Positions 37,891 through 40,508 of a DNA stretch of 46,075 bases are shown here, piece by piece; positions within the stretch are counted from its first letter, which is position 1, and each line of letters opens with the position of its first letter. Where the stretch lies: assembly GCA_021819125.1 (NCBI GenBank), contig JAKARW010000007.1, forward strand, positions 1 through 46,075, in the 5' to 3' direction. The position numbers and the translations under genes are program-made. Origin of the DNA: Pseudomonadota bacterium. GTDB taxonomy: Bacteria > Pseudomonadota > Gammaproteobacteria > Acidiferrobacterales > Acidiferrobacteraceae. The notes under the pieces are model-generated. The model worked only from the letters and a program-made list of their open reading frames with translations, did no database searches and was not told the origin of the DNA.

Positions 37891-40161
37891 TCATGCGCGC
37901 GCCCGGGCGCCCATGAGGTTCAAGGCCGAGCCCGCCCAGAACCAGTTGATTTGTTCGGCCGTGAGCGTATGGCGGGCCTGCAACTCCCAGGTCTTGCCGT
38001 CCGCGCTTGCGACCACGATAAGGACGGGCACGCCCGGCGCGAGCGCACGGATATCGGGCAGGCTTAAGCGGTCGTCGCGCTTTAGCCGTTCATAATCGGC
38101 GGGATCCGCAAACGTAAGCGGCAAAACCCCTTGCTTTTTCAGGTTGGTCTCGTGAATGCGCGCAAAACTGCGTACCAGGATCACGCGCCCGCCGAGATAG
38201 CGAGGCGACATCGCCGCATGCTCGCGGGAGCTTCCTTCCCCGTAGTTGCCGTCGCCCACCGCCACCCACCCAAGGCCCTGCGCCTTATAGGCGCGCGCGA
38301 GACGCGCAAGCCCCACGCCCGCCTCATGCTTCAAGACATCAAAACCGGTCCCCGGGGCGTCGGCAAAGGCATTGGTAGCCCCCATGAACATGTTGTCGCT
38401 GATGCGGTCTAGGTGGCCGCGATACTTAAGCCATGGCCCGGCCGCCGATATATGGTCGGTGGTGCACTTGCCGACCGCCTTCAACAGGATCGGAAGGTTC
38501 TGAAAATCCTCCGGTTTTGGCGCTGGAAACGGCGCCAGCAGACTCAGGCGCTCGCTGTCTGTACGGATCCGCACCGCGGCCGCGGATCCATCCTCCTGGG
38601 GCCGCGTATAGCCGCCGGTCTCGGCCACGAAGCCCGCGCTCGGCAGTTCGTCTGCGACCGGTGGGGCCAGAGTCACGGTCTTGCCATCCACCGCGATCCC
38701 GGCCAGCGGGTTCTCGCCAAGAGTCCCCGTGAGGGCATAGGCGGTCACCACCTCGGGGCTTGCGATAAACGCATGCGTGCCGGGATTGCCGTCGTTACGC
38801 CGCGGGAAGTTGCGGTTATATGAGGTCAAAATACTGTTCGGCGTGCCCGCCGCCACATCGTCGCGTTGCCACTGGCCTATGCATGGACCACAGGCATTCG
38901 CGAGCACCGTGGCCCCAATGGCCGTAAGATCGGCCAACAACCCATCACGTTCCATGGTGGCGCGTACCTGCTCGGAACCGGGGGTCACCAGAAACGGGAT
39001 TCTGGCCTTGAGTCCCAAGGCATGGGCCTGGCGCGCCACATGCGCGGCCCGCCCGATATCCTCATAGGAGGAATTCGTGCAGCTCCCGATCAAGGCCGCC
39101 TGCAGGGTCTCGGGATAGCCATGGGCACGGACGTCATCGGCCAGGGCCGAGACCGGCCGCGCGAGATCCGGCGTATGCGGGCCCACCACGTGGGGCTCGA
39201 GCGTGGCGAGATCAATGGTCACGACCCGATCGAAGGAGTCCTCGGGATGGGCGGTGACCTCGGGGTCGGCCGTGAGATGAGGCGCCAGGATCCGGGCCTT
39301 GGCCGCCAGTCGCCCCCGGCCGGTCTTTTCGAGATAAGCGGCCATGCGCTCGTCGAACGGGAACACCGAAGTGGTGGCCCCGAGCTCGGCACCCATGTTC
39401 GTGATCGTGGCCTTGGCCGTGGCGCTCAAACACGCGGTGCCCGGCCCGAAGTATTCAATGATATGACCGGTCCCGCCACTCGTAGTCAAGAGCCCGGCGA
39501 GCTTCAAGATGACATCTTTGCCGCTCGTCCAGCCGGACAAGCGCCCGACGAGCCGGACCCCGATCCGTTTCGGCCACTGCAGCTCCCACGGCATGCCCAC
39601 GAGAACGTCCACCGCATCGGCGCCGCCCACGCCGATCGCGAGCATGCCAAGACCTCCCGCATTGGGTGTATGCGAATCCGTTCCGATCATAAGCCCGCCC
39701 GGAAAGGCATAGTGCTCGAGCACGACTTGATGAATGATCCCCGAACCAGGCTGCCAGAAACCAATGCCGTATTTGGCGGACACCGAGGCGAGGAAGGCGT
39801 AGACCTCCTCGTTGGTGCTCTCGGCAATCATGAGGTCCTCGCGCGCGCCCGAGCGCGCCCGGATCAAATGGTCGCAATGGACCGTTGTCGGGACCGCGAC
39901 CTCGGCGCGGCCCGCGCTCATGAACTGCAACAAGGCCATCTGCGCGGTGGCGTCCTGCATGGCCACACGATCGGGATGGAAGGCCTCGGTGCTGGAACCG
40001 GGCACCGGCAGGCCGCCACGATCCACCCAATGGGCGAACAGGATCTTTTCCGCAAGACTGAGCGGTCGATGCAGCCGCGCCCTTATCCGTGCGAGACGGG
40101 CCTCGAGATCGGTATAATAGCCGAGCGCGCCATCTTCGGCGTCGGCGGGAAATTTTTCCAT
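37891..40161 (-). CDS. acn: aconitate hydratase (mitochondrial-type)
   Basis: Aconitase isomerises citrate to isocitrate in the TCA cycle through a [4Fe-4S] cluster. The ATG at 40161 gives 756 residues, the size of the mitochondrial-type branch rather than AcnA (about 890) or AcnB. Cluster ligands are in IGSCTNSSYEDIG (near 357) and NACGPCIGQW (near 422). The C-terminal swivel domain has NYGEGSSREHAAMSPRYLGG with the active-site Arg. It lies between tRNA-Thr(UGU), whose 3' end is 56 nt upstream, and tRNA-Tyr. A 12-nt palindrome, GGGCGGCCGCCC (40175-40186), precedes the start and the Shine-Dalgarno is weak. No separate promoter is visible, so it may be co-transcribed with the tRNA. Confidence 0.95.
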   Translation of the reverse strand: MEKFPADAEDGALGYYTDLEARLARIRARLHRPLSLAEKILFAHWVDRGGLPVPGSSTEAFHPDRVAMQDATAQMALLQFMSAGRAEVAVPTTVHCDHLIRARSGAREDLMIAESTNEEVYAFLASVSAKYGIGFWQPGSGIIHQVVLEHYAFPGGLMIGTDSHTPNAGGLGMLAIGVGGADAVDVLVGMPWELQWPKRIGVRLVGRLSGWTSGKDVILKLAGLLTTSGGTGHIIEYFGPGTACLSATAKATITNMGAELGATTSVFPFDERMAAYLEKTGRGRLAAKARILAPHLTADPEVTAHPEDSFDRVVTIDLATLEPHVVGPHTPDLARPVSALADDVRAHGYPETLQAALIGSCTNSSYEDIGRAAHVARQAHALGLKARIPFLVTPGSEQVRATMERDGLLADLTAIGATVLANACGPCIGQWQRDDVAAGTPNSILTSYNRNFPRRNDGNPGTHAFIASPEVVTAYALTGTLGENPLAGIAVDGKTVTLAPPVADELPSAGFVAETGGYTRPQEDGSAAAVRIRTDSERLSLLAPFPAPKPEDFQNLPILLKAVGKCTTDHISAAGPWLKYRGHLDRISDNMFMGATNAFADAPGTGFDVLKHEAGVGLARLARAYKAQGLGWVAVGDGNYGEGSSREHAAMSPRYLGGRVILVRSFARIHETNLKKQGVLPLTFADPADYERLKRDDRLSLPDIRALAPGVPVLIVVASADGKTWELQARHTLTAEQINWFWAGSALNLMGARARA

Positions 40162-40217: not shown

Positions 40218-40508
40218 AGCCCGCAGAGGGATTTGAACCCCCGACCCTCTGATTCATACCCGCTACTGCTTTCGCAGCCCACGAATGGTTTGGGGTCTGG
40301 ACTTTCTCTTCACCTTGTCGGCACTCAAGCACACGATTTAGGTGGATGGTGTAAAGTCTCTACACTCGCCGCTCATCGCGGCTAGCACGGGATTGCCACA
40401 GGACCGACGCCCCAAGGTTTCCCCGTTTTAGCCATCTCCACTGCGAGCGTTTCCGAACGCAGGTGCAATTTTACAAATCAGATGCTCTACCAGCTGAGCT
40501 ATGCGGGC
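40218..40508 (-). tRNA. tRNA-Thr (anticodon TGT) interrupted by a group I intron
   Basis: The 5' exon (40508-40473) carries GCCCGCA, a normal D arm and the 5' half of the anticodon arm ending TCTGA-TTTGT. The 3' exon (40254-40218) resumes AATCAGA and contains the T arm GGGGG-TTCAAAT-CCCTC and TGCGGGC-T. Joined, they give a 73-nt cloverleaf with the 7-nt loop TTTGTAA, anticodon TGT, reading ACA codons. G1-C72 and C2-G71, and G35-U36, fit threonine identity. Unlike the four other tRNA genes here, no CCA is encoded (TACA follows the discriminator). It corresponds to E. coli thrU of the thrU-tyrU-glyT-thrT-tufB operon. Confidence 0.95.
40255..40472 (-). ncRNA. group I intron (IC3-like) in tRNA-Thr(UGU), 218 nt
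   Basis: The intron lies after anticodon base U36 and ends in G (40255). P1 pairs exon UGU with guide GCA (40466-40464), giving the U.G pair at the 5' splice site. Other helices: P2 CTGCG/CGCAG (40462-40458, 40445-40441); P3 GATGG/CCATC (40436-40432, 40349-40345); P4 ACGGG/CCCGT (40426-40422, 40391-40387), followed by GAAA; P6 GCCGC/GCGGC (40382-40378, 40372-40368). P7 is GACTTT/AAAGTC (40358-40353, 40305-40300), P8 CACCT/AGGTG, P9 CTGC-GAAA-GCAG (40277-40266). The core strings GTGTAGAGACT, CCACCTAA and GGTGAAG...AGTCCAG match the Azoarcus tRNA-Ile intron as I remember it. No ORF is encoded, so it should self-splice without a maturase. Confidence 0.94.

Follow-up and report, generated by a model that had tools for sequence, protein, structure and literature searches.

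Reviews and surveys of group I introns in bacterial tRNA genes name tRNA-Leu(UAA), tRNA-fMet and tRNA-Ile2(CAU) as hosts. Bacterial tRNA-Arg(CCU) is also a host, and the tRNA-Ile(CAU) intron of Azoarcus, which is ~200 nt long, is inserted after U36 with a U.G pair at its splice site, as is the Thr intron described here. A group I core does not fit into an insert of 22-49 nt. Claims of Arg, Gly and Lys hosts in cyanobacteria rest on inserts of 22-49 nt (PMC5733544). In the gammaproteobacteria Beggiatoa and Thiomargarita, tRNA-Arg(TCT) and tRNA-Leu(TAA) genes were missed by annotation through putative group I introns, much like the gene studied here, however, those introns are given without structural analysis and include no Thr case (PMC4853749). 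The Azoarcus intron, of subgroup IC3, uses a 3-nt guide (PMC6274277), a feature shared with the Thr intron when the two are compared by description. We found no earlier report of a Thr host in the open-access literature, with subscription papers outside the search. The suggestion of a preliminary description that such a host may be new thus agrees with the literature searched, in which the hosts described are Leu(UAA), fMet, Ile2, Arg(CCU) and Arg(UCU).

We analyzed a window of 46,075 nucleotides, contig C76 of an Acidiferrobacteraceae genome (2.15 Mb, 99.7% complete, 108 contigs), in which the two halves of a tRNA gene are separated by a 218-nt insert. The coordinates first proposed for this insert, 40255-40472, are exact, and the gene lies on the minus strand. 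The features of the locus are as follows:

40473..40508, minus strand: 5′ exon of tRNA-Thr(UGU), positions 1-36, ending ...TTTGT
40255..40472, minus strand: group I intron, 218 nt, after U36 in the anticodon loop
40218..40254, minus strand: 3′ exon of tRNA-Thr(UGU), positions 37-73, AATCAGA...GCGGGCT, CCA not encoded
37894..40161, minus strand: aconitase gene, downstream of the interrupted tRNA-Thr (Pfam Aconitase 1e-137)
Predicted exon junction after splicing of tRNA-Thr(UGU): ...TTTGTAATCAG...

ARAGORN missed the interrupted gene in the unjoined window sequence, and on the joined exons it reported tRNA-Thr(tgt) with a complete cloverleaf, as expected of an anticodon-loop insertion whose removal leaves an intact tRNA. 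Other families of the order carry an intron-free tRNA-Thr(UGU) gene that departs from the joined exons by one or a few bases, and in one relative (G021) this gene is 99% identical to them over 76 nt. Because these orthologues are near-identical to the joined exons, they fix the intron boundaries and establish both the host, tRNA-Thr(UGU), and the insertion after U36, each as originally put forward. They also rule out the solutions that ARAGORN offered with introns allowed, a tRNA-Tyr(gta) host or a junction 1-2 nt off.

Upstream of the gene, a promoter scan returned nothing at the scan thresholds; a TACAAT-like element is present there, and TANAAT is retained in many relatives. Encoded CCA is absent from the interrupted tRNA-Thr of genera g1 and g2 (window:40212-40220, loci L002-L015) and is retained in that of sister genus g3 (L016/L070) and of the other gammaproteobacterial carriers. 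The usual order tRNA-Thr(UGU)-Tyr-Gly-Thr(GGU)-tuf is broken by aconitase between Thr(UGU) and Tyr (window:37535-40508), beyond which the cluster reads tRNA-Tyr, -Gly(UCC), -Thr(GGU), then tuf.

The Rfam model Intron_gpI (RF00028) matched the intron with an E value of 8.1e-6, however, the score of 29.7 bits lies under the gathering score of 50 bits. Together with the ARAGORN miss, the sub-threshold score means that routine annotation drops this gene. A covariance model (R2) whose sole input was eight tRNA-Leu(UAA) introns, all from other genomes, gave a single match in the 46-kb window, at 40436-40255 on the minus strand (112.2 bits, E 2.8e-30), and its end point is the terminal G of the intron. 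All core helices P1-P9 named in the preliminary description are present, including the P7 strands and the GAAA-capped P9, and so is the terminal G:

40464..40475, minus strand: P1/P10 guide, exon UGU (40475-40473) with internal guide sequence (IGS) GCA (40466-40464), U36.G at the splice site
40469-40467, minus strand: P10 candidate, AUU with exon AAU; UU can pair with A37 A38
40442..40461, minus strand: P2 hairpin, two-sided changes in the family alignment
40345..40436, minus strand: P3 (40436-40432 with 40349-40345), encloses P4, P5 and P6; two-sided changes in P3 and P6
40358-40353 with 40305-40300, minus strand: P7, the guanosine-binding helix, GACTTT with AAAGTC, 99.3% of cells paired in 23 homologues
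40344-40341 with 40314-40311, minus strand: P8, A-U to G-C changes
40295-40293 with 40261-40259, minus strand: P9.0, part of 40259..40295
40277-40274 with 40269-40266, minus strand: P9, GAAA-capped, within 40259..40295
40255, minus strand: terminal G (omega-G), the end of the R2 match; G185 of the core, invariant in the alignment of 23 Thr introns

We scored this structure (P3, P4, P5, P6, P7, P8, P9.0, P9 and P9a, with P7 crossing P3) on an alignment of 23 divergent Thr introns. Standard pairs form in 98.7% of core-helix cells, and pairing falls to 37-50% when one strand is slid by 1-3 columns. Two-sided changes number 101, against 35.7 +/- 4.9 in shuffles (reached in 0/500). P3, P6, P8, P9 and P9a covary; P4, P5 and P7 are nearly invariant and are thus supported by conservation. 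Chance similarity to group I introns is ruled out by the match of the Leu-only model and by homologues at the same site. A covarying core in which P3 and P7 cross, a terminal guanosine, a covariance-model match and a sequence related to the introns of tRNA-Leu and tRNA-Arg identify the insert as a group I ribozyme of the type known from bacterial tRNAs. It would belong to an IC3-like subgroup, an assignment made via its kin introns only.

The interrupted gene was found in 16 of the 18 genomes of the window's family, Acidiferrobacteraceae, at 79-92% identity (the window itself, 100%). Neither exon was matched in the remaining two, most likely due to assembly gaps. When 84,980 species were scanned with a 3′-junction pattern, 31 of the 32 loci returned were interrupted tRNA-Thr(UGU) genes, 13 of them in the window's family and 18 in other gammaproteobacterial metagenome-assembled genomes (MAGs), some titled Acidiferrobacterales or Arenicellales. 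This brings the carriers to at least 34 gammaproteobacterial genomes (16 of the family and 18 further MAGs), and the exons are tRNA-like in all of them. Most of the relatives are draft MAGs, although one carrier is assembled into a single contig and a second into four. Evenly drawn samples held no further carrier of the Thr intron besides the window genome (1/369 class genomes; 1/398 phylum genomes). The host is therefore rare but scattered. The sampled other families of the order carry an intron-free tRNA-Thr(UGU), and their RpoB is 80-82% identical to that of the window genome, compared to 70-75% for carriers outside the family, leaving out one locus with a very long branch (L080). Viral contigs gave no match to the Thr intron. 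Over the window genome, the Thr intron was the sole match to a further model, R1, and a whole-genome Rfam search, which also missed the Thr intron, found no second group I intron. By its distribution, the Thr intron is a conserved gammaproteobacterial lineage and is not peculiar to the window genome. A similar insertion, TTTGT|...GTTGCA...G|AATCAG, is present on a 1.26 Mb plasmid of Tritonibacter mobilis (Alphaproteobacteria, Rhodobacterales).

In each of the 31 loci confirmed from the pattern scan, TTTGT closes the 5′ exon and TTGCACC follows a few bases into the intron. UUGCA and exon UGU|AA are invariant (31/31), U36 faces the guide G in every case, and the guide holds while loops P5, P6, P8 and P9a vary freely. 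The U.G splice-site pair and a GCA guide re-tuned to UGU, both claimed from the window alone, are thus general to these introns. Leu introns have the guide UUGAG for CUU|AA, Arg(UCU) introns UAGGAG for CUU|CUA, and Arg(CCU) introns TTGGG for CCU|AA. Since the guide matches the anticodon arm of its own host across the Thr, Leu, Arg(UCU) and Arg(CCU) introns, the guide follows the host.

The tRNA-Leu introns, which also occur in this order and class, share with the Thr intron the core (112 bits with the Leu-only model) and a UU:AA P10, however, they are inserted at 34/35 rather than 36/37 of a different host and pair GAG with CUU where the Thr intron pairs GCA with UGU. The tRNA-Arg(CCU) introns of alpha- and gammaproteobacteria are inserted after U36 (CCU|AA), as in Thr, and differ in host and in a guide of GGG instead of GCA; the Azoarcus intron likewise differs in its host tRNA and its guide, GUG. 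The guide region takes the form ATTGAGCACC in Leu introns, ATTGGGCACC in Arg(CCU) introns and ATTGCACC in Thr introns, and the two-base length difference between ATTGAGCACC or ATTGGGCACC and ATTGCACC suggests how the guide may have been re-tuned. As donor candidates, Leu and Arg(CCU) introns do not differ in how close their guides come to the Thr guide. The Synechocystis-type tRNA-fMet intron, also an anticodon-loop group I intron and one that occurs in this order (L121, L039), carries a PD-(D/E)XK endonuclease ORF (PF11645), whereas the Thr intron encodes no endonuclease: no ORF of more than 28-29 aa lies wholly inside it, and longer reading frames enter only from its flanks.

By standard decoding rules, UGU is the only anticodon among the Thr tRNAs here that reads ACA. 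The other 35 tRNAs of the window genome include Thr(GGU) and Thr(CGU), and no second tRNA-Thr(UGU) was found in this 99.7% complete genome (G000). Among 24 carriers, including the single-contig and four-contig genomes, in which the intron is present, no intact near-identical copy was detected by a search that recovered the intron-free control at 99% over 76 nt. Five genes, rpoB, rpoC, tuf, zwf and acn, together hold 21 ACA codons. With only UGU reading ACA and no other tRNA-Thr(UGU) detected, the cell probably needs splicing for ACA decoding, and the earlier wording, that splicing is probably essential, can be retained. We hypothesize that the pre-tRNA is transcribed and the intron folds around P3-P7, upon which a P7-bound guanosine would attack at the U36.G splice site. 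The freed 5′ exon would then attack after the terminal G, aided by P10 (UU with A37 A38), and the product would be an intact tRNA-Thr(UGU) that reads ACA.

Two other accounts of the locus bear on this mechanism. If the tRNA gene were dead and the insert a degenerate group I remnant that does not splice, ACA would have to be read by another tRNA. The low Rfam score (29.7 vs 50) would suit such a remnant, as would the loss of an encoded CCA that 35/35 other tRNAs of the window genome keep. However, an enzyme can supply the CCA, the core either stays constant or changes with compensation in 23 divergent introns, the exons stay tRNA-like in all carriers, 24 of which are without a detected intact tRNA-Thr(UGU), and the five genes named above contain ACA codons. 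We regard a dead gene as very improbable. Splicing with the help of a host protein, such as a maturase-like factor, is a less remote prospect that we still consider unlikely. It would fit a small intron with a P1 of 3 bp and without a protein-coding frame, and some group I introns are known to have protein help (PMC3984707). The Azoarcus tRNA-Ile intron, on the other hand, has a 3-nt guide and is the standard case of self-splicing (PMC6274277), and the GAAA tetraloop and GC-rich core suggest that the Thr intron, too, would splice on its own.

The path by which the intron reached this family can be read in part from its exons and its tree. The family's exons share a TCTGA stem with the intron-free relatives of the order, and distant carriers have a GCTGA stem. 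As the exons thus side with the intron-free relatives and not with the distant carriers, the intron probably entered the family alone, without its host gene, although its loss from sister families would account for this as well. The gammaproteobacterial Thr introns form one group apart from the Leu, fMet and Arg introns (97/92; 91/97 with more rows). This grouping, and the fact that the Thr introns partly follow RpoB groups, would also be expected if the intron were ancestral in Gammaproteobacteria and had been lost, rather than never received, in the intron-free families. Yet tRNA-Thr(UGU) is uninterrupted in the sister families sampled from the order, and with the window genome as the only carrier among 369 class and 398 phylum samples, very many losses would be needed. 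We find ancestry with loss doubtful, and given the rarity of the intron, we favor spread by transfer.

The Tritonibacter insertion falls outside the gammaproteobacterial Thr group in the tree, however, joining the two gives p-AU 0.41, so the tree is compatible with a common as well as an independent origin. We offer only tentatively, and with some doubt, the broader proposal that tRNA-Thr(UGU) is an unreported host class reached by a small guide change (ATTGAGCACC or ATTGGGCACC to ATTGCACC, a 2-nt loss, GAG or GGG to GCA, with P10 retained), that bare introns without an endonuclease spread between gammaproteobacterial lineages, and that the same site was hit again independently in Rhodobacterales, on the Tritonibacter mobilis megaplasmid.

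Several other tRNA introns were met along the way. The tRNA-fMet introns of the order (L121:949-1500, L033, L039) have the PD-(D/E)XK ORF (PF11645, E 1.7e-50) and resemble the cyanobacterial fMet type. Order relatives (L136-L147) have a different group I class in tRNA-Ile2(CAU), at 61-89 bits with Rfam, and the tRNA-Arg(UCU) introns of the order (L124, L126, L129, L130, L132-L135) are inserted at 34/35 with a guide complementary to CUU|CUA. A related intron sits in an apparent tRNA-Lys(UUU) gene, GACTTTT...AATCAG (L204; G271:C120:16628-16810, minus strand); to our knowledge, tRNA-Lys(UUU) is not known as a group I intron host. A truncated intron with its 3′ exon adjoins an intact tRNA-Leu(UAA) (L038:460-585, minus strand, in G023), which looks like an intron-bearing copy that decayed next to a working gene. 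The conjugative IncL/M plasmid pCTX-M3 (NC_004464.2; L238:561-857) has a tRNA-Leu(UAA) gene interrupted by a group I intron, which scores 99 bits with R2. A core segment similar to this intron matches ~1,260 mostly enterobacterial plasmids, a match that was read in pCTX-M3 alone, and plasmids of this kind are a possible vehicle for the spread of such introns.

Because the known hosts Leu, Arg, Ile and fMet recur nearby, we view the Thr intron as a retargeted lineage of a known kind of tRNA intron that brings no new mechanism; the surprise is the host, the conserved guide and the scattered spread. We are highly confident in the reading as a whole, in which a small, IC3-like group I intron that would self-splice follows U36 in the one tRNA-Thr(UGU) gene detected, is predicted to be removed to give the tRNA that reads ACA, would descend by retargeting from the Leu/Arg/Ile/fMet kind, and probably entered as an intron alone.

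Threonine joins the few isotypes known as intron hosts among bacterial tRNAs, and the interrupted gene accounts for why tRNA-Thr(UGU) would seem to be missing in such genomes. It also indicates that a new anticodon can be matched in nature by re-tuning a 3-nt guide, which bears on designed Azoarcus-type ribozymes, where the triplet sets specificity. With no intact tRNA-Thr(UGU) detected in carriers, ACA decoding in these bacteria probably hangs on ribozyme splicing. If so, this dependence would make the family a natural test of how an intron persists and moves without an endonuclease.
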